Of a stretch of 64,000 bases of DNA, positions 8,299 through 27,627 are shown one piece after another. The DNA is taken from NCBI RefSeq assembly GCF_000337835.1, contig NZ_AOLM01000004.1, positions 62,001 to 126,000 on the forward strand, read 5' to 3'. Source of the stretch: Haloferax sulfurifontis ATCC BAA-897. GTDB lineage: Archaea; Halobacteriota; Halobacteria; Halobacteriales; Haloferacaceae. The stretch's first letter is position 1. Every line of letters starts with the position of its first letter. The position numbers and the translations under genes are program-made. Under the pieces are notes generated by a model. That model worked only from the letters and a program-made list of their open reading frames with translations. It did no database searches and was not told the DNA's origin.

Positions 8299-8415
8299 TT
8301 CGTTGTCGGATGCTCTCTCGGCGAGGATATCAGTCCACCGTTCGACGTTGCGGCGCGCTCGGGTGTGAGCCGGACTCGGAAAGAATCAAAGCTCACGGCG
8401 TGCACAACTCTGTCA

Positions 8416-9708
8416 ATGAAGTTCAGCATCATCGGTAGCGGGTACGTCGGCACGACGGTCGCGGCCTGCTTCGCGGAGCTCGGCCACCGCGTCGTCAACG
8501 TCGACATCGACGACGATATCGTTCGGGCGTTGAACGAGGGCCGATGTCCGATTCACGAGCCCGGGCTGGCCGAACTCGTCGAACGGCACGCGGGAGACGG
8601 ACTCCGAGCGACGACCGACTACGACGAGATTCTCGACACGGAGGCCACGTTCCTCGCCCTCCCGACCCCGTCGAACGACGACGGCAGTATCGACCTCGGC
8701 GCGATGAAGGCCGCCGCGACGTCGCTCGGCGAGACGCTCGCGCGGAAAGACGGTTCGCATCTCGTCGTCACCAAGAGCACGGTCGTCCCGACGACGACGG
8801 TCGACGTCATCGGGCCGCGAATCGAGGAGGCGTCGGGGAAACGCGTCGGCGAGGGGTTCGATATCGCGATGAACCCCGAGTTCCTCCGCGAGGGCACCGC
8901 AGTCGACGACTTCCTCGGCCCTGACAAAATCGTCCTCGGCGCACAGACCGAACGCGCGTACGAAACGCTAGACGAGATATTCGCCCCGCTCGTCGACCGC
9001 GCCGGAAACCCGCCGGTCGTCAAGACCGGCATCAGCGAGGCCGAGATGATAAAGTACGCCAACAACGCCTTCCTCGCGTCGAAAATCAGCCTCGCCAACG
9101 ACCTCGCGAACATCTGCAAGGAGTTCGGCGTCGACTCCGACGAGGTGTTGGAGACTATCGGTCTCGACTCCCGCATCGGGTCGGCGTTCCTCGGTGCGGG
9201 GCTCGGGTGGGGCGGGTCGTGCTTCCCGAAGGACACGGCGGCGATTATCGCCGCCGCGCGCGGTCGGGGCTACGAACCGCGTCTGTTGCAGGCCGCCGTC
9301 GACGTCAACGACGGCCAACCGGAGCGAATGCTCGATCTCCTCCGCGAGCGAATCGACCTCGACGGCACGCGCGTCGCCGTTCTCGGGCTCGCGTTCAAGC
9401 CCGGCACCGACGACATCCGGAAGTCGCGGGCGACGTTACTCATCAACTCGCTCATCGACGCCGGGGCCGACGTCGTCGGCTACGACCCCGTCGCAACCGA
9501 AAACATGCGCGAGCGGTTCCCCGACATCGAGTACGCCGACTCGGCCGCAGACGCGCTCGCGGGCGCCGATGCGGCGCTCGTCGCGACCGACTGGGACGAG
9601 TTCGCGGCGCTCGACGACGAGTTCGACGCCATGCGCTCGCCCGTCGTCATCGACGGCCGCCGCATCGTCACTCGACGCGACGGCATCGACTACGAGTCGC
9701 TCGTCTGA
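8416..9708 (+). CDS. aglM: UDP-glucose 6-dehydrogenase AglM
   Basis: Makes UDP-glucuronate from UDP-glucose with two NAD+ reductions, supplying hexuronic acids for the S-layer glycan. It is 430 residues, the same size I recall for Haloferax AglM. It has an N-terminal NAD fold (SIIGSGYVGTTVAACFAELG), the NAKI-like central segment (EAEMIKYANNAFLASKIS), the catalytic cysteine C269 in GWGGSCFPKD, and a C-terminal UDP-binding domain. The ATG at 8416 is used. The frame upstream (8365) is not needed. In this window its product could also feed the UDP-xylose synthase-like enzyme at 14392-15384. Confidence 0.93.
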   Translation: MKFSIIGSGYVGTTVAACFAELGHRVVNVDIDDDIVRALNEGRCPIHEPGLAELVERHAGDGLRATTDYDEILDTEATFLALPTPSNDDGSIDLGAMKAAATSLGETLARKDGSHLVVTKSTVVPTTTVDVIGPRIEEASGKRVGEGFDIAMNPEFLREGTAVDDFLGPDKIVLGAQTERAYETLDEIFAPLVDRAGNPPVVKTGISEAEMIKYANNAFLASKISLANDLANICKEFGVDSDEVLETIGLDSRIGSAFLGAGLGWGGSCFPKDTAAIIAAARGRGYEPRLLQAAVDVNDGQPERMLDLLRERIDLDGTRVAVLGLAFKPGTDDIRKSRATLLINSLIDAGADVVGYDPVATENMRERFPDIEYADSAADALAGADAALVATDWDEFAALDDEFDAMRSPVVIDGRRIVTRRDGIDYESLV

Positions 9709-9893: not shown

Positions 9894-12800
9894 TTACGGA
9901 GCGACCGCGGCCGCGCCGGCGTCGACTGACGCCGAGACCGAGGCCGACGTCGACTCGTTCGTCTGCGAGTCGTCCGACGAGGAGCCGCCGGGCAGGTCGA
10001 GTTCCTGTTCGTTCCGTTCGAGGGTGACCTGCACGGCACCGTCTTCGGCACCGTTGACGAGGCCCTCCTCGACGGCGACGTTCTCCGCCTGATAGGTGAC
10101 GATGGTGTTGTTCCCGGCGACCGAGGTCGGCCCGGTGAACGCGTAGCCGCCCGTCGAGCGGACGCTGACGTTCGTGTAGCCGTTGTCCGGTCCGTACTCG
10201 TCGTAGCCGGTCGTGGAGTACGGGAGCGTCATCGTGAACTCACCGTCGGCGTCGGTCTGCGCCTGCTGTGTGTAGGTGAAGTTCGTACCCGTGGTCAGGT
10301 CGCGCATCTGGACGCGCGCGGTCACCGTCGCGTTGGCCGGGGCACCGCTGCCTTCGACCGTCGCGCCGGGGACGCGCTCGAACGTCTTGACCCACGATGG
10401 GTTGTTGGGGACGAGCGCCTGTGGCTGGATGCCGTAGGTGTTGCCCTCCCTGACGATGGAGTTCTGGTAGGACCCCGAGCGGAGCGCCGAGCTGTTCGAG
10501 GACTTCACGAGACGGTAGTGTTCGAGTGCCGAAACGCGCTCCTCGGGGAACGTGCCGAGACCGCCGATCTGGGAGGTCGGGTCGTTCGCGACGTACTCCT
10601 CGGCGGCGCTCATGTTGTCGAACACTCTGACTGCCTGCCCGTCCGAGGGCGTCACTCTGAACGTCGCCGAGCCGTCGGCGGATGTGCGCTCTTCCCAATC
10701 GACGACGATCGGCGACGCCTCGCGAGCGCTGCCGTGGTACGCGTAGAGTCGGACCATCAGGCTCTCGTAGTAGCGCTGGTCTTTGACGTTCGATGCGGCG
10801 GCGACAGTCGTCTGCCCGTTCTGCTCTTGTAGGCGGTACATCGGACTGTAGAAGTCCGACGCCGAGACGTTCGACTCGTCGTAGAAGACGGTCGGCGCGG
10901 CGAACTTCGAGTCGGTCGAAGCCATCTGCCAGTCGACCATGACGTAGCGAGTCTGATCGCCTTCGCCGTCGTCACCCATCGAGGTGAGGACCGATTCAGC
11001 CTGCTGTTCGTCGTCGGCGAGGAGGAAGTTCGCTGCCCCGGTAGCACCTTCCTGGAACGGGTTCGCGTTCGGGATGCGTTCGCCGAGGACGGTGATCAAG
11101 TGACCGTAGTCCCACCAGGACATGACGCCGTAGGAGCCGTCCGGATAGTCGAAGTCGTCTGCGCGCTCGTACGTCCCGTAGTACTCCATCCGGTTCGATT
11201 CTCCGCCGAATTCGCCTTCCGCGGGTGTGTTGTTCTGCATCCAGGAGAGACTTCCGTCCCACTGAGTGACGGTCCCTGGACCGGTTTGAGACGCTTGCAT
11301 AGCGGTCTGAGACACGCCGCCGTTACCGAGTTGGATCGGGATGATGAGGACGGGCGTGAGGATGAGGAGGACGGCAATCATGACCGCTGCGACCTGACCA
11401 TACGAGACGTCGTCGAGGCGGTCGACGCTCGCGAAGCCGATGAAGTCGATTCTGAGGACTTCTCGAAGGAGGTAGGCGTTCATCACCGCGACGACGACCG
11501 CGAGGTAGTAGTTGAAACGAACCTGCGTGAAGGCGGCAGAGGTCATAATAGCTGCCCACACGAGGACGAACAGCTGCTCGCTCTCGTATTCAGCTTGCAT
11601 CACTGCCCCCACGATGAGTGCGGTGACGATGGTCAGACTGACGAGCGACGATTCGACGCCGAGGGCACTACCGATCCCTGCCGGAAGCGCCGGTATCAAG
11701 AAGAGTACTCCGATGAGGGTGAGGCTCCCGGCGACGTATCCAATCCTCCGCGAGTTCCCACCCTTGACGAGTGGTTTCGCGACGAGCCAAACTGCTGCGA
11801 GAACACCTGTGAAGAAGGTAAACCCGTACTCGGACATGATACGGCCGACAGCAGTTTGACCGCTCGACTGGAGCGAGCTTGCAGCAATGAACGGCTGTGC
11901 CTCTCCGATGGTCCGAGTGGCTGCCCCGGCGCTGAACCCGACCGTGCGGAGGAAGTTAGTCGTAATCTGTCTGAAAGCGTCCGGGAGGATGACCGCTAGT
12001 AGCGCTATCGCGATGAGGCCGATGGCAGCGACGGCGATGGGGTATCCTCGGGCGTCGATATCGCTTGACTCCCACCAGCGAGCGAGTGCGGCGAGAAAGG
12101 CAGCACCGAGAGCGATACCGAACGAGAACAGCGGTTGAATGAGGCTGAACTGGGTGATACTGAACGAGGTGTCGGAGAGTGGGACGAACATCAAGACGCC
12201 GGTGACGAGCATCGAGACGACACCGACGAACGCGACGTGCTCGGGGGACCGCCCGCGTACGAAGTCAGAAACCATCGCAAGGACCAAAAAGAGCCCAACA
12301 ATCCCGACGAGGAGGATGCCCGGCGGCCACGACCACATGTAGACCGCCATCGCGACGCCAGCGAGCACGGACCACTTGATGGGATTTCGGAGTGCATTGA
12401 AGTCTCCAGCCTCAACGAGCTCCCAGACGGGTTTTTCGCGGTCGGCGACACTGAGGGCAACCATCACCGCGAGGACCGCGAAACCTTGGAAGAACGGCTC
12501 GGCGATGTTGTGGTCGGCGAATCCGACGAGACCACGTTGAAGGAAGGTCCCGGGTAGGAGCATCAGGATGACGACGCCGAAAAGGCCACCGAGGCGTCCG
12601 CCAAGTCTGCGGCCGATCAAGAACGTTGGAATGGCGACGAGCGTACCAAAGACTGCCGGGGCGACGAGGAGCGTCTTCGCGATCAAATCCGTGGAGGGGC
12701 TCCCGAGTCCAACGATGAGTGCGACCGTCGCAATTATTTGGTCGTAGATAGTGCCGAACTGGCCGACACTCGTCCCGAACGGGAAGTTCGTCCACGGGTC

Positions 12801-13040
12801 GAACGGCATTGTGGAGGGCCAATTGCGAACCGTGTACGAAACTTCGCGGAGGTGGTACCACGCGTCGTTTCCCGAGAAAAGGACATCACCATCCCTGATG
12901 AAATTACTGTACGACCGGAGACGAATAGCCAACATAGTGACTAATATCACGAGGAGGGCGGGGACGTGATACCAGTCTTTGAACAGTTCGAGGACCGACT
13001 GAGAATCAAGGCCCTCTGTACGTTCAGAGTCTACGCTCAT
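9894..13040 (-). CDS. aglB: Dolichyl-phosphooligosaccharide-protein glycotransferase AglB
   Basis: Catalytic oligosaccharyltransferase that transfers the assembled lipid-linked glycan to Asn-X-Ser/Thr on S-layer glycoprotein, archaellins and other exported proteins. It has 1048 residues. About a dozen transmembrane segments fill residues 20-590. The metal-binding DxD-like region sits in the first external loop (SGNDAWYHLREVSYTVRNW). The catalytic-pocket WWDYGH motif is at residues 642-647. A large external C-terminal domain is Asn/Thr-rich and ends in a Ser/Asp-rich tail. AT-rich sequence (ACTTATG on the reverse strand, about 13066-13075) sits about 30 bases before the ATG. It is the conserved anchor of the variable glycosylation island. 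Confidence 0.96.
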   Translation of the reverse strand: MSVDSERTEGLDSQSVLELFKDWYHVPALLVILVTMLAIRLRSYSNFIRDGDVLFSGNDAWYHLREVSYTVRNWPSTMPFDPWTNFPFGTSVGQFGTIYDQIIATVALIVGLGSPSTDLIAKTLLVAPAVFGTLVAIPTFLIGRRLGGRLGGLFGVVILMLLPGTFLQRGLVGFADHNIAEPFFQGFAVLAVMVALSVADREKPVWELVEAGDFNALRNPIKWSVLAGVAMAVYMWSWPPGILLVGIVGLFLVLAMVSDFVRGRSPEHVAFVGVVSMLVTGVLMFVPLSDTSFSITQFSLIQPLFSFGIALGAAFLAALARWWESSDIDARGYPIAVAAIGLIAIALLAVILPDAFRQITTNFLRTVGFSAGAATRTIGEAQPFIAASSLQSSGQTAVGRIMSEYGFTFFTGVLAAVWLVAKPLVKGGNSRRIGYVAGSLTLIGVLFLIPALPAGIGSALGVESSLVSLTIVTALIVGAVMQAEYESEQLFVLVWAAIMTSAAFTQVRFNYYLAVVVAVMNAYLLREVLRIDFIGFASVDRLDDVSYGQVAAVMIAVLLILTPVLIIPIQLGNGGVSQTAMQASQTGPGTVTQWDGSLSWMQNNTPAEGEFGGESNRMEYYGTYERADDFDYPDGSYGVMSWWDYGHLITVLGERIPNANPFQEGATGAANFLLADDEQQAESVLTSMGDDGEGDQTRYVMVDWQMASTDSKFAAPTVFYDESNVSASDFYSPMYRLQEQNGQTTVAAASNVKDQRYYESLMVRLYAYHGSAREASPIVVDWEERTSADGSATFRVTPSDGQAVRVFDNMSAAEEYVANDPTSQIGGLGTFPEERVSALEHYRLVKSSNSSALRSGSYQNSIVREGNTYGIQPQALVPNNPSWVKTFERVPGATVEGSGAPANATVTARVQMRDLTTGTNFTYTQQAQTDADGEFTMTLPYSTTGYDEYGPDNGYTNVSVRSTGGYAFTGPTSVAGNNTIVTYQAENVAVEEGLVNGAEDGAVQVTLERNEQELDLPGGSSSDDSQTNESTSASVSASVDAGAAAVAP

Positions 13041-13160: not shown

Positions 13161-14216
13161 TCACCGACTCTCGTACCAGTCGACGTACCGCTCGATTCCT
13201 TCCTCGAAGTCGACTCTTGGTTCCCAGTCGAGTTCATCCCGTGCTCGGGACGTGTCCGAGACGTACACCTTTTGGTCTCCTTCACGCCACTCGCCGAAGG
13301 AGATGTCGGTTCGCTTATCAGACTTTTCTTCGAGGAGGTCGAGGAATTCGAGGAGGCTTGTCGTGTTCTTCGTTCCACCACCCATGTTGTAGACCGCGGA
13401 CTTGCCGTCAGGGTCTGAGAGAAATGCGTCATAGGCGCGAACGAGATCTTTCACATAGAGGACGTCACGAACTTGCTTTCCGTCTCCGAAGATGGTCAGC
13501 GGTTCGTCGTTGAGCGTACTAATTGCAAAGTGAGCGACCCATCCTTGATCTTCATTTCCGAACTGTCGTGTCCCATAGATACAACTCATGCGGAACGCTG
13601 CTGCTTGCACTTCGTTTCGCTTTGTATAGTCCTGCACGTAGATGTCAGCTGCGAGTTTCGAGACACCGTATGGTGTATGTTCGCACCCGTCGATAGAGAG
13701 GGACTCAGGGATTCCCTGATCGAAGTCTGGGTCATCGTACCAGTAGCGACTCTCTTGTTCGCGGACGGGGATGTTGTTGACGTTGTTTCCGTACACTTTG
13801 TTCGTCGAGGCGAGCACCACCGCAGGGTCGCTGTCTGCTTTCCGTGCAGCCTCGAGGACGTTGAACGTCCCTTCGGCGTTCACCTCGAAATCCGTGCGAG
13901 GGTCAGTAAGCGACGCCGTGACTGCGACTTGGCCGGCGGTGTGCACGATTGCGTCGTGCCCTTCGACGATGGATTCGAACGTATCAGCGGCGCGGATGTC
14001 AGCTTCGACGAGTTCGACCTCGGGGTAGTTCTCCTCGATGAAATTCCAGTTGTATGCCGCGGTGTTCCGACTCTCATCGGCATTTTCGAGCGTCTCAGTT
14101 CGACTGAGGTTGTCGAGTGCCGTGACGTCGGCACCCTGTTCTGCGTAGTACTCGACCGCGTGACTGCCGACGAAGCCCGCGCCACCAGTGACGAGGACGT
14201 TCTCCGGTTTGCTCAT
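13161..14216 (-). CDS. NAD-dependent epimerase, CDP-paratose 2-epimerase (TyvE)-like
   Basis: Extended short-chain dehydrogenase of 351 residues. It has nucleotide motif TGGAGFVGSH at 10-19 and the catalytic Tyr-Lys pair YGVSK at 183-187. Internal signatures (LASTNKVYGNNVN; MSCIYGTRQFGNEDQGWVAH) are what I associate with CDP-paratose/tyvelose 2-epimerases, as opposed to GalE. It would epimerise a nucleotide-linked hexose or deoxyhexose for the N-glycan. The true substrate is uncertain, because no CDP-sugar dehydratase is visible here. It lies between aglB and the UDP-xylose synthase-like gene on the same strand, with about 120 bases to aglB and 175 to the upstream gene. Confidence 0.75.
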   Translation of the reverse strand: MSKPENVLVTGGAGFVGSHAVEYYAEQGADVTALDNLSRTETLENADESRNTAAYNWNFIEENYPEVELVEADIRAADTFESIVEGHDAIVHTAGQVAVTASLTDPRTDFEVNAEGTFNVLEAARKADSDPAVVLASTNKVYGNNVNNIPVREQESRYWYDDPDFDQGIPESLSIDGCEHTPYGVSKLAADIYVQDYTKRNEVQAAAFRMSCIYGTRQFGNEDQGWVAHFAISTLNDEPLTIFGDGKQVRDVLYVKDLVRAYDAFLSDPDGKSAVYNMGGGTKNTTSLLEFLDLLEEKSDKRTDISFGEWREGDQKVYVSDTSRARDELDWEPRVDFEEGIERYVDWYESR

Positions 14217-14318
14217 GTGTTAGGTCTGCGTGCATGTGGTGAAAATACATGAGGTGGATATAGTTATTGCTCGCAATTCGACTGTTGTGTATAAAATCAC
14301 CACGTTAGATGACTCGGA

Positions 14319-14399
14319 TTACTCTTCTCCAACGAGACCCATCTCTTCGAGTTCTGCGTGGACTTCCTCGAAGTTTTCACTGACTCCGCGATTAGTCGT
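14319..14399 (-). pseudogene. C-terminal coding remnant, possibly of a sulfatase-fold gene
   Basis: A 26-codon reverse-strand stretch ends in a stop and reads like a real halophilic C-terminus (FEEVHAELEEMGLVGEE). It has a stop immediately upstream and no start. The form resembles the end of the sulfatase-fold protein at 21340-22395 (EEVTQRLQDLGYF). It overlaps the 3' end of the next gene by 8 bases, so it looks like a recombination scar where a replaced gene left its last codons. Short length makes this tentative. Confidence 0.25.
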
Positions 14400-15384
14400 C
14401 TGTTAGCCGCTGTTCGAAATACGGAATCGTTCTTTTGAGTCCCGTTCGGAGCGAGATCGAGGGCTTCCAATCGAGTTGCGACGTGATTTTGGAGATATCA
14501 GGGCGTCGAACTTCTGGGTCGTCTTGTGGAAGTGATTTGTACGTCACGCCGGAATCGGTATCGACGACATTGAGGATGACGTCAGTTAATTCTCGAATGG
14601 AAATCTCTTCCGTGTTCCCGATGTTGAACACATCGCCTGCAGCGACTTCAGCAGGGGCATCAGCAATCGTTCGGATTCCTGCGACCAGATCTGATACGTA
14701 ACAAAAACTCCGGGTCTGACTACCATCACCGTAGACAGTCAAGTCCTCACCACGGAGCGCCTGCGTCAGGAAGTTTGGAACCACACGACCGTCGTTTGGA
14801 TCCATTCGGGGACCATACGTGTTGAAGATTCTAGCGGTGCGAATGTCCATCTCGTATTTCCGTTCATACGCGACGGCGAGTGCCTCCGAGAAGCGCTTCG
14901 ACTCGTCGTAGGGCGCTCGCGGGCCTCTGATGTTGACGTTGCCGTTGTACGTTTCCGACTGAGGGTGTTCGTTTGCATTCCCGTACACTTCACTCGTCGA
15001 GGCGATGAACACGCGAGCGTCGTGGTCACGAGCACATTCGAGTGCGCGCTTGGTCCCCTGACTGTTCGTCAGTGCGATTTCGACGGAGTGCGAGGTGAAA
15101 TCTTCTGGACTCGCCCGTGACGCCATGTGATAGACGACATCGACAGTTTTGAATTCAGGGAACGGATCCCGGACATCGTGTTTCTGAACGGTAAGCCTTG
15201 GCGACTCAACATGCGCCAAGTTCTCCTGACGGCCACTCCCGTAGTTGTCGAGAACAGTGACACGGAACCCATCTTTAAGGAGGCTATCGACGAGGTGGCT
15301 CCCGAGAAATCCCGCACCGCCAGTCACGACTACGTGCGTTGTGATTTCTGTATCAGGCTGTAGTGAACTTTTGTCTTCCGACAT
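14392..15384 (-). CDS. UDP-glucuronate decarboxylase (UDP-xylose synthase)-like SDR
   Basis: A 330-residue extended SDR. Cofactor motif TGGAGFLGSH is at 21-30 and the catalytic YDESK at 159-163. The later run TYGPRMDPNDGRVVPNFLTQ and TVYGDGSQTRSFCYVSDLV is typical of UDP-xylose synthases and related 4,6-modifying enzymes. It would convert UDP-glucuronate, the product of AglM, to UDP-xylose. It is separated from the upstream AglF-like gene by only 3 bases, so they are co-transcribed. A dTDP-glucose 4,6-dehydratase is less likely given the DGRVVPNF and QTRSF pattern. Exact product not proven. Confidence 0.75.
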   Translation of the reverse strand: MSEDKSSLQPDTEITTHVVVTGGAGFLGSHLVDSLLKDGFRVTVLDNYGSGRQENLAHVESPRLTVQKHDVRDPFPEFKTVDVVYHMASRASPEDFTSHSVEIALTNSQGTKRALECARDHDARVFIASTSEVYGNANEHPQSETYNGNVNIRGPRAPYDESKRFSEALAVAYERKYEMDIRTARIFNTYGPRMDPNDGRVVPNFLTQALRGEDLTVYGDGSQTRSFCYVSDLVAGIRTIADAPAEVAAGDVFNIGNTEEISIRELTDVILNVVDTDSGVTYKSLPQDDPEVRRPDISKITSQLDWKPSISLRTGLKRTIPYFEQRLTDD

Positions 15385-15387
15385 CTG

Positions 15388-16398
15388 TTAGAAATAGATA
15401 CTGCTGTTGTCGCCAACGTTGAGATTGTTCGCCTCACCGTGGACATCCGTGTTACTCCCGACGATGCTTTCGTTGATATTGACGCCCTGTAAGACCGCAT
15501 TCTGTCCAACAATACTGTTGGCGACGATGCTCTGTTCTATCGTGGCCCTATCGTCAATACTCACGTACGGGCCAACGACACTCTCTTTGACGGTTATGTT
15601 CTCTCCAGCGTCAATGGGAGGGATGATGACAGATCCTCTAAGTTGCTCGTCTCCATTTGTTTTAGTTCGTTCGAGAAGAACACGGTTGGCTTCCAGAAGC
15701 GTCTCGGGACGACCACAGTCGTACCAGTCTTCGACTTCGAATGTTCGGAGGTTGCACCCCTGTTCGACCATCCTCTGGAGCGCGTCGGTTAATTGGAACT
15801 CGTTTCCAGCACCTCTGATGTCGTTGTCGACCAGATGCCCGAGCGCGTCAAAAAGTGCGTTCGAATTTTCGATAATGTACACGCCACTGATAGCTAAGTT
15901 CGATGGTGGGTCATCAGGTTTCTCGACGAGTCGGCTGACTGCGTTGTCCCCGCTCATCTCGACGACGCCATAATGGCTCGGTTCGGAAACCTCCTTCACG
16001 CCGATGCTTCCGTCGCTCTCCGGAAGTTCGTCATGAGCATCGAGGAATGTGTTGAATCTGTTTTCGAAGAGCATGTCCCCGAGTGCGATGAGTAACTCGT
16101 CGCCGCGGGCGATAGATTCGGCCTGATAGATACTGTGGCCGAGGCCTTTTGCGTTCTCTTGTTCAACGAAGTCGAACGCGAACCGTTCGGAGAATGCAGA
16201 CCGAGCGTACTCAGTAATCTGGTCTTTCATAGTCCCTCCGACGACGACGACGACTTCTTCGACATTCGTCTCGGCAATATTTTGGAGGATATGTCCGAGA
16301 ATCGGCTTTCCAGCTAGCCTTACCATTCCCTTTGGTTTCGTATGCGTCTGGGGGTAGAGCCGTGTCCCTTGACCGGCAGCTGGAATGATCGCTTTCAT
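15388..16398 (-). CDS. Sugar-1-phosphate nucleotidyltransferase (AglF-like)
   Basis: A 336-residue nucleotidyltransferase that would activate a hexose-1-phosphate to an NDP-sugar for glycan assembly. The N-terminal catalytic domain has GQGTRLYPQTHTKPKGM (8-24) and LIALGDMLFENRF, with VEKPDDPPSNLAISGVYII further in. The last 90 or so residues are a left-handed beta-helix of hexapeptide repeats (ITVKESVVGPYVSIDDRATI and on). AglF of H. volcanii is the nearest recalled homologue, and RmlA-type dTDP-glucose synthase is the alternative. It heads an operon with the UDP-xylose synthase-like gene. The start ATG sits after an AT-rich stretch. Confidence 0.8.
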   Translation of the reverse strand: MKAIIPAAGQGTRLYPQTHTKPKGMVRLAGKPILGHILQNIAETNVEEVVVVVGGTMKDQITEYARSAFSERFAFDFVEQENAKGLGHSIYQAESIARGDELLIALGDMLFENRFNTFLDAHDELPESDGSIGVKEVSEPSHYGVVEMSGDNAVSRLVEKPDDPPSNLAISGVYIIENSNALFDALGHLVDNDIRGAGNEFQLTDALQRMVEQGCNLRTFEVEDWYDCGRPETLLEANRVLLERTKTNGDEQLRGSVIIPPIDAGENITVKESVVGPYVSIDDRATIEQSIVANSIVGQNAVLQGVNINESIVGSNTDVHGEANNLNVGDNSSIYF

Positions 16399-17492: not shown

Positions 17493-18620
17493 GTGCGTGT
17501 CGCCATCATCACACCCCGATATCCACCTAACGTTCACGGTGGGGGAGAAATCAGTGTCCAACTTCTTGCAAATGAACTATCACCTCAGGTAGATCGTGTT
17601 GAGGTGTTTAGTTTCGATGGCGCCGGTGCGCGATCAGTCGACGGAATCAAAGTCCACCGATTTAGAAGCCTCCCACACCAGATACTGGAGTGTTCGAATC
17701 TACTGGCATACCTCCCATTGAGAAGGAAACTCAAGCAGTTAGAATCATTCGACGTACTCCATTCGTACAACATCGTATTGAACCCTGTTGTTGGTCGTCT
17801 CTCCTCTCAGATGGACGTTCCAAGCGTAGCGACACTGAACTCGTATGACCTCCTACCTAAGTCGGCTTTCGGAATAAAAGCACCCCCGAAACGACGTTTG
17901 TACGAACTTCTCTCAATGGGCACTACTGGCCGAATTATCCGGAGCGAAACAAAACGGATCAACCGCTTTATCACACTGAGCGACGCTTCTAGAACTATCT
18001 ACCGCGAAAACGGATTCCAGGACGTTCCGATCGATGTGGTCCCAAATATGCTTGATCCTTCATTTAAAATTCCTGAATCTGGAACAGACTCCAATAGCTA
18101 TCAGTTACTCTTCGTTGGTAGCCTAATCAGAGAGAAGGGAGTCAAGTATCTTATTGAGTCTCTGTCTCATCTTTCTTCGGATATCTCTCTCAGAGTAGTT
18201 GGCACTGGAGACCAACGCCAACCCCTTGAGTCATTAGCTAATCGATTGGAAGTTAACTCTCGTATCGATTTCACGGGCCAGATTCCGTACGAGCAACTAT
18301 GTCAGTACTACACAGATGCTGACTTATTCGTCCATCCTGGTGTATGGCCGGAACCGTTCGGGCGAACGTTGCTAGAGGCGATGCAAGCAGGCCTTCCAGT
18401 GGTTGCAACTAACCTAGGGGGGCCCGCAGAAATCGTCCAGCAAGACGAACTCCTCTGTCCGCCAAGAAACGCCAAAAAGCTCGCTGAGACAATTTCGCTA
18501 GCACGAGATCGATCAGGCGATGGAGTCCAGAACCAGGCGTATGTCTACAAACGGTACTCTCCCGAAACAGTCATCGACGAAATTTGTGATGTGTACCAGT
18601 TGGCAATGGACGGTTGGTAA
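17493..18620 (+). CDS. Glycosyltransferase family 4
   Basis: A 375-residue GT-B enzyme. The N-terminal acceptor domain starts MRVAIITPRYPPNVHGGGE, with the Gly-rich loop of GT4 enzymes. The C-terminal donor domain has LLFVGSLIREKGVKYLIES and the EX7E-like region FGRTLLEAMQAGLPVVATN. It would add one sugar to the dolichol-linked glycan on the cytoplasmic face. It starts with GTG right behind a TATA box. The codon use (AGA, CTA, ATA) and lower GC differ from housekeeping genes in the window, consistent with horizontal acquisition. Confidence 0.85.
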   Translation: MRVAIITPRYPPNVHGGGEISVQLLANELSPQVDRVEVFSFDGAGARSVDGIKVHRFRSLPHQILECSNLLAYLPLRRKLKQLESFDVLHSYNIVLNPVVGRLSSQMDVPSVATLNSYDLLPKSAFGIKAPPKRRLYELLSMGTTGRIIRSETKRINRFITLSDASRTIYRENGFQDVPIDVVPNMLDPSFKIPESGTDSNSYQLLFVGSLIREKGVKYLIESLSHLSSDISLRVVGTGDQRQPLESLANRLEVNSRIDFTGQIPYEQLCQYYTDADLFVHPGVWPEPFGRTLLEAMQAGLPVVATNLGGPAEIVQQDELLCPPRNAKKLAETISLARDRSGDGVQNQAYVYKRYSPETVIDEICDVYQLAMDGW

Positions 18621-18629
18621 TCCGTCCAC

Positions 18630-19511
18630 CTACGAATTAATCGTACTTTTCAGCTCCCCAACACGGTTTAACATACGTTCAAGAACATATAAGAAGGACA
18701 CGTCCAGATTTTTGGATTGTTGTAGAGCCAAGGGGAGATAGGCTAACGAGCCAAACAGCCCAAACAATATCCGCGGTATTGTCCGAGATCCACCGTGTTT
18801 TTGATGGAAGTGGTGTGTTCCTTCTCCAGACCGGATTGCTCTACTAACGAATGACTCCCAACTGTAATCATCGTTGTGTTCTACAGATATTGGGATGTAT
18901 TTCATATCGAATCCGGCTTCAACGACCCGGCGCTGTAGGTCTGCATCTTCTCCTGCTGCTAATGGGAACGATTCATCGAATCCGTCCATCTCGGAAAGCA
19001 CAGACCGTAGGTATGCAACATTTGCCGTTCCGCCCACTGCCAAGTCACCTTCATCCCGAACTGGCTCGTCCGGTTCATCGTACGACATCTGGTCTCGAAA
19101 TCTGTGCGCTTGAGCAAAGCGGTTGTTCCTCAATAGTTCCTCGAGTGGGACTAACGAGCCACCTACTGCTGCAACACCCGGTTCGAAACCAGCAACCAAC
19201 GAATGTACCCAATCTCGCGGAACGATGCAGTCGTCGTCTGTGAACAGAATAAACTCACCTGCCGCACGTCGCCACCCCCGGTTACGTGCTGCCGCAGGTC
19301 CTGAATTTTCCTGTCGTAGTACCTGTACGTGTCCCTGCTCTTCGAAACGCCTGAGAACGTCGTGTTGGTTTTTGGATTCGGAGCCGTCGTCGACGACGAT
19401 TATCTCATAATTGTCTGCGGTCTGGTCACAGACTGACCCTAATGTCTGCTCTAATTTCGACGGTCGCTCGTAGGTCGGGATAACAATAGACGCGCGTATC
19501 TTGGAGGTCAC
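18630..19511 (-). CDS. Glycosyltransferase family 2
   Basis: A 293-residue GT-A enzyme. It opens with ASIVIPTYERPSKLEQTLGS, then IIVVDDGS, the NSGPAAARNRGWRRA motif, the metal-binding DDD in FTDDDCIVP, and a Glyco_transf_7C-like stretch (GGTANVAYLRSVLSEMDGFD, then GEDADLQRRV). It is a probable inverting sugar transferase for the N-glycan. It uses a GTG start at 19511. It converges on the GT4 gene with a 9-base gap and is divergent from the flippase gene. A C-terminal hydrophobic patch may give membrane association. Confidence 0.85.
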   Translation of the reverse strand: MTSKIRASIVIPTYERPSKLEQTLGSVCDQTADNYEIIVVDDGSESKNQHDVLRRFEEQGHVQVLRQENSGPAAARNRGWRRAAGEFILFTDDDCIVPRDWVHSLVAGFEPGVAAVGGSLVPLEELLRNNRFAQAHRFRDQMSYDEPDEPVRDEGDLAVGGTANVAYLRSVLSEMDGFDESFPLAAGEDADLQRRVVEAGFDMKYIPISVEHNDDYSWESFVSRAIRSGEGTHHFHQKHGGSRTIPRILFGLFGSLAYLPLALQQSKNLDVSFLYVLERMLNRVGELKSTINS

Positions 19512-19728: not shown

Positions 19729-21174
19729 ATGGATACTGCTCGTTCTGGTATCGGTTGGTTGATTGCCCAGATGGGTGCACTCGCTGTGGCCTGGATCGCG
19801 AGCATTTATTTTGCTCGAACACTTCCTGATCCTCAGACGTCCCTCGGCACGTTCTATGCGTTTGAGACTGTCGTCACATTCCTTGTTTTGCTTGGAAACG
19901 GCGGTCTGAACGAAGCAATCGTTAAACGAGTCAGTGAAGGGAGAGATCCCGAACAGTTTGCAACTGCTGGTTTGTTGCTATCTATATCACTTGTTGTCAC
20001 TGTCTCGGCGGGCATCCTATTGTCATCACAACTACTGATAAATTTCTTTAATTTTGGGGGAATCTCAGTATTGGTGATTATTGTGACAGTCATTTCATAT
20101 CAAATGAGGGATACTTTGGGTGCACTTCTAGCAAGCAAATTCCAAGTTGGACGCTCAGGAGCCATCAACTTCGCAAATTCGGTTGGGCAAGTCGCCGTTC
20201 AGGTCTCACTTGTCTCTATCGGTTTCGGTGCCATTGGACTCATGATAGGATATATGGCGGGTGCGGTGTTCGCATCGCTGATAGCGATCTGTCTCGTCTC
20301 AAATCGTTTCAACATCGCCTCACCCACGAAGCACCACATCTATAGTCTGGTTCGGTTCGCTCGGTACAGCTTCCTCAACAACTTCGTCCAGAAATTTTAC
20401 GATAATATCGACATTATCATAATAACAATTTTACTTGGTACATCATCAACAGGCGTATACGGAATTGGCTTTCGATTCTCTCTCCTTGTCATGGTTATCT
20501 ACAGCGCAATTACCCGCTCGGTCGCACCTGAGATTAGTCGGCTAGATATGGAAGGAAATAACGAGCGTATTCGGGAACTCCTCAACGATTCAATCGTTTT
20601 GGGACTGTTTTTTGGGATTCCTGCTCTGGCTGGGTTCGGTGTTCTCGCACAACCAATCATCGTCACGTTCTACACGGAGGAGTTCGCCTCGGCAGCAGTC
20701 ATCGCATTCGGTGCCGTCGCAACAAGAATCCCGGAAGGACTTCGGTCGACTGCTAGCGCTGTACTGAGCGGCATGGACCGTCCAGACATCACCTTTCGGG
20801 GTGGTGCTATTCTCATGATTACAAATCTTGTTCTTGATCTTATTCTTGTCCCGACGATTGGAATCAAGGGTGCTGTAGTGGCGAGCTTTGCTGGAATGTC
20901 CCTGCAACTGTTGTATCTTACTTATTATCTCTTTTCGATTCTTGACCTCTCGTACGTTGATCTTCCTGGCCGAGAGGTCCTGGCCGAGGTCCTAGCCGCG
21001 CTCGTAATGGCCGGTGTCGTCTACGCTGTGAGAGTCAGGCTCCCCGGGATGTCTGCTGCATTACTTGTTGGATTAGTTCTGCTCGGTGTTATCACTTACT
21101 TCACGGTCATTATCGGTATCAGTGGAGGTGTCCGGCGCCGAGTATTCGGAATCGCACGAACGGTAATACCTTGA
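19729..21174 (+). CDS. Polysaccharide-type flippase (Wzx/AglR-like, MOP family)
   Basis: A 481-residue polytopic membrane protein with 12-14 predicted helices and few charges. It belongs to the MOP superfamily of lipid-linked oligosaccharide flippases. Recognisable features are the N-terminal GIGWLIAQMGALAVAWIASI helix, the central NNFVQKFYDNIDIIIITILL segment and the late RIPEGLRSTASAVLSGM loop. It probably moves the dolichol-linked glycan to the outer face before AglB acts, the role attributed to AglR in H. volcanii. A TATA-like ctattaat at 19697-19704 lies about 28 bases before the ATG. GC content is low for this genome. Confidence 0.85.
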   Translation: MDTARSGIGWLIAQMGALAVAWIASIYFARTLPDPQTSLGTFYAFETVVTFLVLLGNGGLNEAIVKRVSEGRDPEQFATAGLLLSISLVVTVSAGILLSSQLLINFFNFGGISVLVIIVTVISYQMRDTLGALLASKFQVGRSGAINFANSVGQVAVQVSLVSIGFGAIGLMIGYMAGAVFASLIAICLVSNRFNIASPTKHHIYSLVRFARYSFLNNFVQKFYDNIDIIIITILLGTSSTGVYGIGFRFSLLVMVIYSAITRSVAPEISRLDMEGNNERIRELLNDSIVLGLFFGIPALAGFGVLAQPIIVTFYTEEFASAAVIAFGAVATRIPEGLRSTASAVLSGMDRPDITFRGGAILMITNLVLDLILVPTIGIKGAVVASFAGMSLQLLYLTYYLFSILDLSYVDLPGREVLAEVLAALVMAGVVYAVRVRLPGMSAALLVGLVLLGVITYFTVIIGISGGVRRRVFGIARTVIP

Positions 21175-21339: not shown

Positions 21340-22395
21340 CTAAAAATAACCGAGATCTTGGAGTCTCTGTGTCACCTCTTCAGAAGTGACATTTGAATTT
21401 GTGACACTCTCTGTGGGTGTGTGTGTTTTGTTGTCCGTTCCAGTAGTTTCGTACCACGGGACGGTAACGAGTGGGTCGATTGGCATCCAACGTGGATGGC
21501 CGTAAATCCCATACTCTCCAATCGCGTTTCCGTGGTCTGAGGTAACAACGGCAGTGTCGGCGTCAACATTTTCCAACAGTATTTTGACGTCCTCTAATAC
21601 GTGGCGTAAGTTGTTCTTATACTCACGCCACACTGTTTCTTCGTCCACATCTCCGGTCCGTAACTGCTCCCATATCGTCCGTGACTGCTTCTTTCGCTCT
21701 TTATCGTTTGGACCGATATACGAGCCTTGGTCTAACTCTGGTGCGGGAATGAACGGATGATGCGGTTGCATATAATGGACAATCATCGAATCTATGTCCT
21801 GGTTCCTACTGGTCTCGATTGCTGTATCAGTGATTGGTCTGGGTTGAATCGTTCCGATATCGTTATCCCAACTCCTTCGCCAGACCTCCTTCAATATCTT
21901 CACAGGCACCTCTCGTTCTCCGGTGAGTTTTGTTTTACAGGATGAACATATTTCACACCCCTCATGGTACACGGCTTGGTGCGAAGGTTTGATCTCAGCC
22001 CCACAGTCACACTGATTAGAGAACGTATAAGGGAATGCATAGATCGAATTAGGATTTCCAGTAACATACGCTGCCTGTGCGAGTTTGCGTTTATACTGTG
22101 GGTCGAAAATCTTCTTTACCCAATCCGATGTCGAACTCGCAACTGACGTTAACGAGTTCTGGTTTGAGAGAAACTGGTATTCATCTGCGACAGATTGTAG
22201 TAAATCCAAACGACAAGCGTCAAGTACAATCAGAAGGTCCCAATCACGCTCCCAAACTGATGTTGGATTATAATTCAAATTGCTAATCCATCTGACACAT
22301 CCTACTCGAAATTCGTACGATGACTCTTTAACACCATCTATCCCGTCTGTCCGGATTGACTGGACAGAACTGTTGAACCAGTCGAATAGACTCAT
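21340..22395 (-). CDS. Sulfatase/alkaline-phosphatase-fold protein with inserted Cys-rich zinc-ribbon-like segment
   Basis: A 351-residue cytosolic-looking protein of the alkaline phosphatase superfamily. The first metal/nucleophile site is LIVLDACRLDLL (D59, C61, R62) and the late metal site is VVTSDHGNAIGEYG (D287, H288) followed by GHP. Such genes are common in haloarchaeal glycan clusters and might modify a sugar with sulfate or phosphate. Residues 129-153 carry five cysteines (CDCG, then CEICSSC), a probable zinc ribbon inserted in the fold. The C-terminus is TQRLQDLGYF. There is no signal peptide. Substrate unknown. Low GC suggests transfer with the island. Confidence 0.7.
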   Translation of the reverse strand: MSLFDWFNSSVQSIRTDGIDGVKESSYEFRVGCVRWISNLNYNPTSVWERDWDLLIVLDACRLDLLQSVADEYQFLSNQNSLTSVASSTSDWVKKIFDPQYKRKLAQAAYVTGNPNSIYAFPYTFSNQCDCGAEIKPSHQAVYHEGCEICSSCKTKLTGEREVPVKILKEVWRRSWDNDIGTIQPRPITDTAIETSRNQDIDSMIVHYMQPHHPFIPAPELDQGSYIGPNDKERKKQSRTIWEQLRTGDVDEETVWREYKNNLRHVLEDVKILLENVDADTAVVTSDHGNAIGEYGIYGHPRWMPIDPLVTVPWYETTGTDNKTHTPTESVTNSNVTSEEVTQRLQDLGYF

Positions 22396-22443
22396 GTATA
22401 GGTTCGTTCATCCCTGGGTCTAATAAGGTATTTCCCTTTTAAT

Positions 22444-23332: not shown

Positions 23333-23494
23333 GACAAATTCATTCTAGAAATATACAACTACCTATGTCCAACCAACCCTTCGTAGACCCAATCCCTTGT
23401 TTGTGGGTTTAATTAGCGCGAAAATCCGTCTTGTCCTCTTTGATTTGGGCGCTCGGTTGATCTGCTAACCCTTTGAGAGAAAAACGATGCTAGG
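23333..23494. other. Short AT-rich spacer beside the insertion sequence
   Basis: No gene, repeat or clear promoter is visible. It contains two short T-rich stretches and separates the IS end from the converging GT4 stop. Confidence 0.3.
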
Positions 23495-24538
23495 TTATTG
23501 ATTTTGATAGATGATCTGAGTAAACTCGGCCACTTCGCTCCACGTGATGCCAATATCAACATCGACATCAACGTGGTCCAAAGAGTGGACTGTACTGACT
23601 ATCTCCGAGGATCTGGCATCTTGAATCGCGAAACTTCCTTCTCTTCTTGCCCAGTCCACTAATGCCCCCGCTTCCCTCACCACACACGGCGTCCCCGCCG
23701 CCAACGCCTCTGCCACCGTCATCCCGTAGGCCTCGAACTCGCTCATGGTCACGTAGACGTCGGCACCGGCGTAGAGACCGGGCAACGTCTCGCTATCAAC
23801 GTATCCGAGGAACTCGACTCGGTCTTCGACACCAGCCTCTCGTGCGATTCGCTCCAACGCATCGCGATACGGCCCGCTCCCCGCGACGAGCAGGTCGAAT
23901 TCGGGGAGGTCGGTCATCGCACGAATCACGTGCTGGACACCTTTGTATTCCTCTAACCGTCCAACTGTGAGGAGATACGGTCGTTCCCGATCGAACGGCG
24001 TGGCCGACGTGAACCGCTCGACATTGAGTCCGTTCGGTATCACCGTCGCATCGACGTCGAAGTCCCTTGCCAATTGTTCGCGTTCCCACTCGCTGACGGC
24101 GATGACAGCGTCGGCACGTCTGACTGCCCACCTGCCGAACGGCCTGTAAAGCGACAGCAGTCTCTCCCGAACCGAACTCGCGCTGCCACCGTGGTAGTGC
24201 GTCGTCACGACGAACCGTCGCTCACCGACACCCAGCGCCGCGAAAAACAGCGGGAACGAGTGATAATTGTGTGCGTGGACGATATCGGCGTCCGCGTTCC
24301 GAACTGCCCGCATGATCTGCGGGCAAATATGCATGGCACCGTCCGGTGCGACCCCGCGGTAGCGCTTAATACGAACGCCGTTTCGGCGCTCGCGTCGAAA
24401 CCCATCCCCGCCAGCGTCAGCCGTGAGGACAGTAACCTCGTGCCCACGATCGACGAGTCGCTCCGAAAGCTCGCAGACGTGGGTTTCGACCCCTCCGGAT
24501 TGCGGCGGATACCGCGGCGTCACCTGCAGTATCCTCAT
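23495..24538 (-). CDS. Glycosyltransferase family 4
   Basis: A 347-residue GT-B enzyme beginning MRILQVTPRYPPQSGGVETH. It has the donor-domain stretch YLLTVGRLEEYKGVQHVIRA and the EX7E motif in EFEAYGMTVAEALAAGTPCV. The ATG at 24536-24538 overlaps the stop of the upstream GT2 gene (TGA/ATG overlap), so the pair is one transcriptional and translational unit. The frame upstream of this ATG is an Arg-rich shadow. The last 40 residues are less conserved-looking (Asp/Val repeats, IGITWSEVAEFTQII). It probably acts on the same lipid-linked glycan. GC content returns towards the genome norm here. Confidence 0.85.
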   Translation of the reverse strand: MRILQVTPRYPPQSGGVETHVCELSERLVDRGHEVTVLTADAGGDGFRRERRNGVRIKRYRGVAPDGAMHICPQIMRAVRNADADIVHAHNYHSFPLFFAALGVGERRFVVTTHYHGGSASSVRERLLSLYRPFGRWAVRRADAVIAVSEWEREQLARDFDVDATVIPNGLNVERFTSATPFDRERPYLLTVGRLEEYKGVQHVIRAMTDLPEFDLLVAGSGPYRDALERIAREAGVEDRVEFLGYVDSETLPGLYAGADVYVTMSEFEAYGMTVAEALAAGTPCVVREAGALVDWARREGSFAIQDARSSEIVSTVHSLDHVDVDVDIGITWSEVAEFTQIIYQNQ

Positions 24539-25689
24539 TCGTACTGGTCTCGCAGTTCTTCGTCGACTTCCCAAATCGCACTCCCTTCCCCGCGCAGCAG
24601 TTTCACACTCGCAAAGAGCAGCGACACCTGCGTATCGAAGAGTGCGTAGGCGGGCTGGAGCGACCCGAGTTCATCGTGTGACCCGAGAGCGACGAACGCG
24701 GCGGCGGCACCGGGTACAACGAGTCCAAGGGGGCCACCGAGGGCGAACCCGGCGAGCGTCGTCACCGAAACCGCGGCTGCGAGCAGCCACGGGGAGACTA
24801 TCATAAACCACCAGTTGAACGGGAGAACGACAGCCCCGTACATTCCGTACCGACCCAATGCGTCGCGGTGCTGGGCGAGGAGTCGAATCAAGCCCATCGC
24901 ACGCCGGTCTTTCTGCGTTCGCCGCTTGGAGAACGCAGAGTGCGACGCCTCCTTGTAGCGGATGTCAGGGTCGAAGACGACGCGCTTGCCGTTCCGCCGA
25001 ATCAGCAGTGCCAGTTCGGTGTCGTCGGCGATGGAGTCCGGGTCGATGGGGACGATTTCGTCGTTTTCGAACGCGGAGAACGGCCCGTGGAAGATGAGTG
25101 TCGAATCGAGATGCGATTCGAGCGTTTGGATGGTCGCTTGGATTCCACGGTACCCCTCTTCGACGCCGCTGCCTCCCAGGACGTCTGCGTTTCGGCCGGT
25201 GACCGCGCCGACGTCGGGGTCGGCGAGGTTGGCGGCCGCGACACGGAGCGCATCGGATGCGACTTTCGAGTCGCAATCGGTCTTGACCACCATCTCGTTT
25301 TTTGCGGCGGCGTAGGCGTCGTTGAGCGCAGGGGCGAGGCCGCGACGCTCGTCTTCTTCGATGAGGTTCAGCGTCGGCGTGTCGCGGCGCTCGAACCAGT
25401 TACGGATGATGTCTCGCGTCGAGTCGTCGCTCGAATCCACGATGACGACTTCGACTTTCTCCATCGGGTAGTCGAGCGCATAGATGTCGTCGAGTTTGTT
25501 TTCGATGATTCGTTCCTCGTTGTACGTCGGCAGCACGATGCTGACCGTCGGTTCCGCGTCCTGCTTGTTCGCTGGGGAGCCCTCCGGGTCAACCACGTAG
25601 TAGAGCAATCCGTAGAGCAGGTACGGGATTCCCGTGAGCGAAAAAAGGAACACCGCCCCTTTCGCCAGACGGCGAGCGAGAGTGCGCAT
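24535..25689 (-). CDS. Membrane-bound glycosyltransferase family 2
   Basis: A 384-residue processive-type GT2. It has an N-terminal helix (VFLFSLTGIPYLLYGLLYYV), then a GT-A domain with VSIVLPTYNEERIIENKLDD, VVIVDSSDDSTRD, metal-binding KTDCDSKV, and a DDTELALLIRRNGKRVVFDP motif with following SKRRTQKDRRAMG (Q/RxxRW-like). Two to three C-terminal helices span about residues 285-345. It could polymerise or add a sugar at the membrane. It lies upstream of and overlaps the GT4 gene by 4 bases. Confidence 0.85.
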   Translation of the reverse strand: MRTLARRLAKGAVFLFSLTGIPYLLYGLLYYVVDPEGSPANKQDAEPTVSIVLPTYNEERIIENKLDDIYALDYPMEKVEVVIVDSSDDSTRDIIRNWFERRDTPTLNLIEEDERRGLAPALNDAYAAAKNEMVVKTDCDSKVASDALRVAAANLADPDVGAVTGRNADVLGGSGVEEGYRGIQATIQTLESHLDSTLIFHGPFSAFENDEIVPIDPDSIADDTELALLIRRNGKRVVFDPDIRYKEASHSAFSKRRTQKDRRAMGLIRLLAQHRDALGRYGMYGAVVLPFNWWFMIVSPWLLAAAVSVTTLAGFALGGPLGLVVPGAAAAFVALGSHDELGSLQPAYALFDTQVSLLFASVKLLRGEGSAIWEVDEELRDQYE

Positions 25690-26715: not shown

Positions 26716-27627
26716 ATGCCCACCCCCGACGCCGTCTGTATCCTCGTCCCTACCTACAACGAGGCAGAAACAATCGCCGATGTCGTCTCAGACTACAGAG
26801 ACGAGGGATTCGCTAACGTCCTCGTCATCGACGGCAATTCCACAGATGGGACACGGGAGCTGGCCGAAGACGCCGGTGCTCACGTCGTCGTTCAGTCGGG
26901 GACGGGGAAAGGCCAAGCAGTCAGAGAAGCCATCGAGGACCACGTCACAGCCGAGTACGTCCTGATGCTCGACGGCGACGGGACCTACGAAGCGACGGAC
27001 GCCGCCAAGATGCTCGACCCGCTCACCGAGGGGTACGACCACGTCATCGGCGACCGATTCGCCGACATGCGGCCGGGCGCGATGACGCGGCTCAACAGGG
27101 TTGGAAACCGCATCATCAACCGGGCGTTCGCGTTCATTCACGGTCAGGACTTCCGCGATATTCTCAGCGGCTACCGGGCGTTCACTCGCGAGTCGTTTCT
27201 CGACATGACGCTCACCTCCGACGGGTTCGGTATCGAGACGGAGATGGCCGTCGAGTGCGCGAAGCGTGGTATCAAGACGACGGTCGTCCCCACGACCTAC
27301 TATCCGCGGCCCGACGGCTCGGACACGAACCTCGACCCGATCCGCGACGGCGGTATCATCTTTCTCGAACTGTACCGCCGCGCCAAGACCAACAACCCGC
27401 TTTTCTACTTCGGAAGCGTCGGGTTCGCGTCGACTGCGACTGGGGTCGGCCTCGCCCTCTACGTCGCCTACGAGTGGGTCGTTCGCTCGGTCTCCCACGA
27501 GGTCATCGCCGTCGTTTCCATGGCGGGAATCCTCTTCGGGGTGCAGTTGCTGATGTTCGGCGTGCTGTCGGATCTCATCTTGTCGTTGCATCGCGAGCAG
27601 ATGAAGCGCATCGAAGAACTGGAGTGA
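26716..27627 (+). CDS. aglJ: Dolichyl-phosphate hexosyltransferase AglJ
   Basis: GT2 enzyme of 303 residues that attaches the first sugar of the N-glycan to dolichyl phosphate. The catalytic domain shows VCILVPTYNEAETIADVVSD, VLVIDGNSTDGT, MLDGDGTYEA and the GDRFADMRPGAMTRLNRVGN and DILSGYRAFTRESF motifs of the DPM1-like AglJ family. Two C-terminal helices (about 232-255 and 262-290) anchor it in the membrane. It is the conserved right-hand anchor of the glycosylation island, opposite aglB. High GC and standard codon use mark it as core genome. A T-rich stretch about 25 bases before the ATG may serve as the TATA box. Confidence 0.92.
   Translation: MPTPDAVCILVPTYNEAETIADVVSDYRDEGFANVLVIDGNSTDGTRELAEDAGAHVVVQSGTGKGQAVREAIEDHVTAEYVLMLDGDGTYEATDAAKMLDPLTEGYDHVIGDRFADMRPGAMTRLNRVGNRIINRAFAFIHGQDFRDILSGYRAFTRESFLDMTLTSDGFGIETEMAVECAKRGIKTTVVPTTYYPRPDGSDTNLDPIRDGGIIFLELYRRAKTNNPLFYFGSVGFASTATGVGLALYVAYEWVVRSVSHEVIAVVSMAGILFGVQLLMFGVLSDLILSLHREQMKRIEELE

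Follow-up and report, generated by a model that had tools for sequence, protein, structure and literature searches.

Three adjacent genes in Haloferax sulfurifontis ATCC BAA-897 are best explained as a cassette that supplies a uridine diphosphate (UDP)-linked pentose to the N-glycan transferred by the oligosaccharyltransferase AglB, a reading that we consider fairly probable. The genes lie at positions 13161 to 16398 of the 64,000-nucleotide stretch analysed here (contig NZ_AOLM01000004.1, positions 62,001 to 126,000; hereafter the window) and encode an RmlA/AglF-like sugar-1-phosphate nucleotidyltransferase, a UDP-glucuronate decarboxylase (UDP-xylose synthase, UXS) and a TyvE-like nucleotide-sugar C2-epimerase. 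As an earlier note on this DNA had described, all three are complete open reading frames (ORFs) on the minus strand and run into aglB; 3 bp separate the nucleotidyltransferase gene from the UXS gene, 175 bp follow before the TyvE-like gene and 120 bp before aglB. As far as literature searches show, the recurrent RmlA-UXS-TyvE-like run beside aglB is new, as is the prediction that an archaeal N-glycan contains a pentose, possibly lyxose, while archaeal UXS as such and variation of the glycan locus are not.

In the proposed pathway, the nucleotidyltransferase would convert glucose-1-phosphate to UDP-glucose, AglM would convert UDP-glucose to UDP-glucuronate, and UXS would form UDP-xylose by oxidizing C4, releasing CO2 and reducing the keto group back. 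The TyvE-like enzyme would probably invert C2 of a sugar nucleotide via an NAD-dependent keto intermediate, possibly turning UDP-xylose into UDP-lyxose. A glycosyltransferase of the locus would then attach the pentose to the dolichol-linked chain, which AglB would transfer to asparagine. All of these activities are predicted: the steps up to UDP-xylose are likely and follow from family membership, and the entry of a pentose into the AglB glycan has good probability, while the action of the C2-epimerase on UDP-xylose is put forward only tentatively.

Results

Identity of the decarboxylase

The product of the middle gene is very probably a UDP-glucuronate decarboxylase, with a predicted conversion of UDP-glucuronate to UDP-xylose. 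Among solved structures it matches human UXS1 best (5e-86, 292 bits, against 144 bits for the next family), a result that strongly supports the UXS-like assignment of the earlier note, and its identity is 48% to human UXS1, 43-44% to the UXSs of Sinorhizobium meliloti and 24% to ArnA. A phylogeny against characterized enzymes, proposed in the same note as a check, places the protein with characterized UXS and not with RmlB. In this 39-row quick tree, several long rows of which carry a warning, the window UXS groups with human UXS1 and S. meliloti Uxs1 and Uxs2 on a starred branch with ArnA outermost, and the UXS group stands apart from GalE, RmlB and Uxe1 (support 90 without ArnA). The S. meliloti proteins were identified by their position and gene order on pSymB; two UXSs and one UDP-xylose 4-epimerase (UXE) of an S. 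meliloti strain have been assayed, according to an excerpt of PMC3220709. In the alignment, the window UXS keeps the TSE triad, YxxxK, the active-site Asn and the Arg equivalent to R619 of ArnA, residues whose roles in decarboxylases were taken from an excerpt of PMC10338323.

Some decarboxylases release the keto product (PMC10338323, excerpt), and an ArnA-like enzyme that yields mainly UDP-4-keto-xylose for a branched or amino sugar has been weighed on that ground. We consider it very unlikely here: the identities given above lie with UXS rather than with ArnA, the TSE form is the usual one for decarboxylases, the protein has the Thr and Asn linked to reduction, and family scans of 12 locus proteins gave no aminotransferase match.

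Identity of the epimerase and the nucleotidyltransferase

We class the product of the third gene as a TyvE-like C2-epimerase of a separate subfamily with a changed base loop. Its closest solved relatives are TaTyvE (9rl0, 7.6e-70) and StTyvE (1orr, 4.2e-61), with the next family at 6.5e-37, so the likeness to a CDP-paratose/tyvelose 2-epimerase (CDP, cytidine diphosphate) noted earlier is borne out. T138, N139, K140, Y183, K187, Q224, W226 and F230 are kept; among them, T138/N139/K140, Y183 and K187 correspond to the catalytic Thr124, Tyr164 and Lys168 and the TNK segment of CDP-tyvelose 2-epimerase (EC 5.1.3.10). The catalytic roles come from an excerpt of PMC13098431, which reports that mutation of Asn-Lys in the TNK segment abolished TaTyvE activity. 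Of the CDP-binding residues Trp207, Trp210 and Phe211 and the Tyr203 that lies over the cytosine, only Trp207 and Phe211 are kept; in the base-closing loop, Tyr203 of TaTyvE is replaced by Glu222 and Trp210 by His229 in all 16 haloarchaeal rows. Because TaTyvE accepts UDP-glucose, a UDP substrate is chemically reasonable for the window enzyme. A Uxe1-type UDP-xylose 4-epimerase was also considered for the third gene and rejected (26% identity and 84 bits to Uxe1; separate clade).

An RmlA-like first gene and a TyvE-like third gene would also suit a dTDP- or CDP-linked deoxysugar (dTDP, deoxythymidine diphosphate) such as rhamnose, paratose or tyvelose, and the earlier note had allowed for a pentose or a deoxysugar. 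The genome (draft, 99.5% complete) holds no RmlC family member at E 0.001, although the same search gives a match in Haloferax volcanii, and its best matches to CDP-glucose cytidylyltransferase (TIGR02623, 41 bits against a cut-off of 300) and CDP-glucose 4,6-dehydratase (TIGR02622, 85 against 278) fall far short. The CDP-paratose/tyvelose and dTDP-rhamnose routes were thus rejected, and the window epimerase is not classed as a CDP-tyvelose 2-epimerase for the same reasons. Together with the grouping of the middle enzyme with UXS rather than RmlB and the replacement of Trp210 by His and Tyr203 by Glu, these results make a deoxysugar product highly improbable. At the level of sequence, then, the pentose half of the earlier proposal is well supported, with a canonical UXS, an adjoining UDP-glucose dehydrogenase, linkage to AglB and a recurrent gene order, and the deoxysugar half finds no support.

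The nucleotidyltransferase probably supplies UDP-glucose. It scores 243.7 bits to TIGR01208 (rmlA_long, cut-off 320.25) and 157.9 bits to the AglF model NF041313 (cut-off 400); the family assignment holds, but since the protein is below both cut-offs the label "AglF-like" used earlier applies only loosely. Relatives of 58-72% identity (95% in the sister genome G393) adjoin UXS in other haloarchaea.

Association with UXS in the order

In 392 genomes of the order, searched with both proteins at a threshold of E 1e-60 or better, the epimerase was found in 16 and UXS in 55. UXS was present in 15 of the 16 epimerase genomes and in 40 of the 376 others (Fisher 4e-13, a value that ignores kinship and joint travel of the cassette). 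Fourteen genomes hold an epimerase copy of at least 70% identity, and in 12 of these UXS lies on the same contig within 15 kb (13 kb in G377); G169 has only a 39% relative. The same-strand order RmlA-UXS-TyvE-AglB occurs in the window and G393, RmlA-UXS-TyvE-AglM-AglB in G123 (L041) and G153 (L047), and RmlA-UXS-SDR-TyvE-AglB, with a further short-chain dehydrogenase/reductase (SDR), in G027 (L044) and G352 (L201). Because the order recurs in other haloarchaeal families, the arrangement goes beyond chance.

A tree of 38 of the 64 haloarchaeal UXS matches with 5 anchors places the TyvE-linked UXSs in three positions. Eleven rows belong to a starred clade of 18; G220 lies elsewhere, in a group with support 89; the third position, on a starred branch, is shared by G153-C15 and one G263 copy. 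Starred branches force at least five changes of the TyvE-linked label. The epimerase has thus come together with unlike UXSs on more than one occasion, although in G263 (L202, 3231-15446) one TyvE-like gene lies between two nucleotidyltransferase-UXS pairs of different clades. Since genomes of the order that carry this C2-epimerase subfamily nearly always carry UXS too, the partnership points to a further step on the pentose.

Two fragments were also seen. At L053:10066-10377, a 103-aa ORF next to UXS resembles the epimerase across 41 aa (63% identity) and is a probable remnant of a lost TyvE-like gene. L040 (G178:C90:23151-23786) is a second, partial TyvE-like copy with two in-frame stops near a contig end.

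The TyvE-like subfamily beyond haloarchaea

A genome-wide scan matched at least 593 stretches, of which 585 were confirmed and the best 80 kept, with UXS counted at 180 bits or more. A UXS scoring 270-289 bits against that of the window lies within about 6 kb of plasmid-borne relatives (41-48% identity) in Azospirillum, Rhizobium, Bradyrhizobium and Sinorhizobium. A 35% relative in Deinococcus also has a UXS nearby, which makes six of the seven plasmid regions opened, Isosphaera being the exception. UXS-linked TyvE-like genes occur in Hyphomicrobiaceae and Legionella as well. In a 100-row TyvE tree, the UXS-linked rows fall in several places and require at least seven changes by parsimony, three of them forced by starred branches; the Deinococcus row has a very long branch and its placement is unsure. 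Met210 and His229 occur together in 20 of 24 UXS-linked rows and in 12 of 74 others, the exceptions being three Hyphomicrobiales rows and Deinococcus; this count is exploratory, ignores kinship and comes from a set biased by one of the two scan patterns, EDQGW[VI]AH, which overlies the base loop.

Several observations weigh against the proposed pathway, and above all against its last enzymatic step. Just 8 of the 80 best loci have a UXS nearby; leaving out the three from haloarchaea the count is 6 of 77, and among the 48 loci that extend at least 4.5 kb to either side it is 7. A family-wide tie of the subfamily to UXS was therefore not upheld, and the subfamily as a whole is not tied to UDP-xylose. 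It is broad, with Omnitrophota, Chloroflexota, Patescibacteria, DPANN and Asgard archaea among the matches listed, and most of its members among those matches must use another substrate or have their substrate supplied from elsewhere. This breadth and the sparse linkage outside haloarchaea are the main evidence against a UDP-xylose substrate predicted from family alone. Within the order, G006 and G268 carry epimerase and UXS on different contigs, G216 has a 59% TyvE-like gene with no UXS match at the threshold, and 40 of the 55 UXS genomes have no TyvE-like gene at the threshold. In the window, family scans tied none of the locus glycosyltransferases to a pentose.

The main rival for the epimerase is accordingly another UDP-sugar: UXS would make UDP-xylose for the glycan while the TyvE-like enzyme converts, for example, UDP-glucose to UDP-mannose or UDP-glucuronate to UDP-mannuronate. 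TaTyvE epimerizes C2 of all tested nucleoside diphosphate-glucoses, UDP-glucose included (PMC7851689, excerpt), and most of the scanned non-haloarchaeal relatives are not near a UXS, which implies another substrate or supply for the subfamily. On the other side, a UDP-glucose or UDP-glucuronate substrate does not demand the presence of UXS in 15 of 16 epimerase genomes of the order, nor UXS partners from different parts of the tree. We regard this alternative as a serious one, somewhat short of an even chance, and its odds overlap with those of the explanation that we favor. That the subfamily contains a UDP-xylose 2-epimerase making UDP-D-lyxose, with haloarchaea building lyxose into AglB N-glycans, is possible but doubtful; if so, this step would have been recruited separately in the UXS/TyvE-like pairs of rhizobia, Azospirillum, Hyphomicrobiaceae and Legionella.

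A survey of common neighbors in the best 80 loci did not reveal the substrate of the relatives lacking UXS. In several phyla the TyvE-like gene directly adjoins a third SDR (about 370-386 aa; 45-54% identity between haloarchaea and bacteria), whether a UXS is there or not (L044:9629-10780, L042, L050, L201 and L202; L063-L066; L110, L112, L116, L124, L144 and L154); 10 of the 80 loci have a match to it above 150 bits. The window lacks this SDR, the best match in the same genome being 74 bits. It may mark an older two-enzyme pathway. Eight of the 80 loci (e.g. L098:7200-7745) have a small HAD-type phosphatase close to the TyvE-like gene, 7 of the copies within 300 bp; it has what we take to be the look of GmhB, hinting at a different sugar in those bacteria.

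The AglB locus and its variation within the genus

AglB, AglM and AglJ all score above their NCBIfam cut-offs (Table 1), which fits a locus of the AglB-dependent N-glycan pathway. The earlier note's start for AglM was also confirmed, as was its placing of the cassette between aglB and the glycosyltransferase genes, which begin at 17493; from there to 25689 family scans found four GT4- or GT2-type glycosyltransferases and a Wzx-like gene. Relatives of AglJ with 86-96% identity occur in G393 (partial), G311, G126, G379 and G196. The 351-aa product of 21340-22395 may be sulfatase-like; Pfam and NCBIfam scans gave no match.

Table 1. Genes of the glycan locus in the window and the matches on which their assignment rests
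Feature	Coordinates	Strand	Evidence
RmlA/AglF-like sugar-1-phosphate nucleotidyltransferase	15388..16398	-	TIGR01208 243.7 bits; NF041313 157.9 bits; Pfam PF00483
Probable UDP-glucuronate decarboxylase (UXS), 330 aa	14392..15384	-	Human UXS1 5e-86; tree; residues
TyvE-like nucleotide-sugar C2-epimerase, separate subfamily, 351 aa	13161..14216	-	TaTyvE 9rl0 7.6e-70
AglB oligosaccharyltransferase, last gene of the collinear run	9894..13040	-	TIGR04154 981 bits (cut-off 450)
AglM UDP-glucose 6-dehydrogenase	8365..9708 (start probably 8416, MKFSIIGSG)	+	NF041297 740.5 bits (cut-off 670)
GT4-type glycosyltransferase	17493..18620	+	Pfam PF00534; 95% in G393
GT2-type glycosyltransferase	18630..19511	-	Pfam PF00535; 93% in G393
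Wzx-like polysaccharide flippase/transporter	19729..21174	+	Pfam PF13440
351-aa protein	21340..22395	-	No Pfam/NCBIfam match at 0.001; 93% in G393
GT4-type glycosyltransferase	23495..24574	-	Pfam PF13439, PF00534; 88% in G393
GT2-type glycosyltransferase	24535..25689	-	Pfam PF00535; 91% in G393
AglJ, first glycosyltransferase of the N-glycan pathway, far locus border	26716..27627	+	TIGR04182 453 bits (cut-off 325)

The bacterial UXS/TyvE-like pairs sit in clusters with glycosyltransferases and polysaccharide genes, and these, with the Wzx-like gene of the window locus, would fit a cassette serving an extracellular polysaccharide or another glycan rather than the AglB N-glycan. We hold this to be improbable given the same-strand run into aglB in the window, G123, G027, G153, G352 and G393, and given that the locus has the same AglM-AglB and AglJ borders as the N-glycosylation cluster known from Haloferax (PMC5867893, excerpt).

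Within the genus, AglB was found in all 15 genomes searched, while the survey of the order found neither UXS nor the epimerase (E 1e-60) in the 12 other genomes of the genus that it covered, one of which is labelled the same species. G393 carries the whole cassette at 91-95% identity, so that the cassette is present in 2 of the 14 same-genus genomes tested (the window genome and G393; G392 was left out). Eight 20-kb loci, window included, were compared; the six that lack the cassette all have AglB (78-84%), three of them show AglM and four AglJ within the stretch compared, and their intervening genes differ. From this comparison, the cassette is taken to be one of the alternative interiors exchanged within an aglM-aglB...aglJ glycan locus. 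In Haloferax, these borders also delimit the major N-glycosylation cluster, which is already known to vary between strains (PMC5867893, excerpt).

Relative to the corresponding locus of G393 (L194), the window has about 1 kb extra at 22443-23500. Two minus-strand ORFs there (22684-23028 and 22476-22844), which lie in different frames, each match a separate part of the DDE_Tnp_1 transposase domain, and on that basis the segment is read as a broken insertion sequence.

Discussion

Searches of the open-licence literature, with most subscription journals outside their range, showed, among the papers listed, none on UDP-xylose or pentose in archaeal N-glycans, and none on lyxose in archaeal glycoproteins or on UDP-lyxose. 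If the proposed pathway is true, archaeal N-glycans include pentoses, an unusual chemistry for a surface protein coat. To our knowledge, C2 epimerization of sugar nucleotides of the TyvE kind is known only for CDP-dideoxysugars and promiscuous relatives; the reaction would thereby gain a natural counterpart on a UDP-pentose. The prediction is narrow and testable, namely a 132-Da residue of xylo or lyxo configuration. The finding also shows that genomes of a single genus exchange entire sugar chemistries while the border genes stay in place; this is relevant to virus sensitivity and mating, points that an excerpt of PMC5867893 raises for Haloferax.

The window UXS shares its part of the tree, its catalytic residues and 43-48% identity with human UXS1 and S. 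meliloti Uxs1 and Uxs2; unlike them it is archaeal, lies beside AglB and forms one run with a TyvE-like epimerase. UXS in archaea has precedent in activity of a Methanospirillum hungatei protein (unpublished data) and in 125 archaeal UXS-type homologues, both mentioned in an excerpt of PMC3220709. The Uxs1-Uxe1 pair of S. meliloti (UDP-xylose, UDP-arabinose) is likewise a UXS followed by a UDP-pentose epimerase, but Uxe1 is a GalE-type C4-epimerase that groups with E. coli GalE, unlike the window epimerase. With StTyvE (1orr) and TaTyvE (9rl0) the latter has 37-39% identity and in common the catalytic Thr/Tyr/Lys, TNK, Gln205, Trp207 and Phe211; it differs in Tyr203 to Glu, Trp210 to His, Met85 to Val and HSSM to MSCI, and in accompanying a UXS, in a genome where, in contrast to CDP-tyvelose systems, no member of the CDP-sugar pathway exceeds its cut-off. 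The aglJ...aglB-aglM cluster of Haloferax volcanii (PMC5867893, excerpt) has the border genes and the UDP-glucuronate supply of the window locus. H. volcanii itself was not searched for UXS or TyvE-like genes; the interior of the window locus differs from that cluster in holding the UXS cassette.

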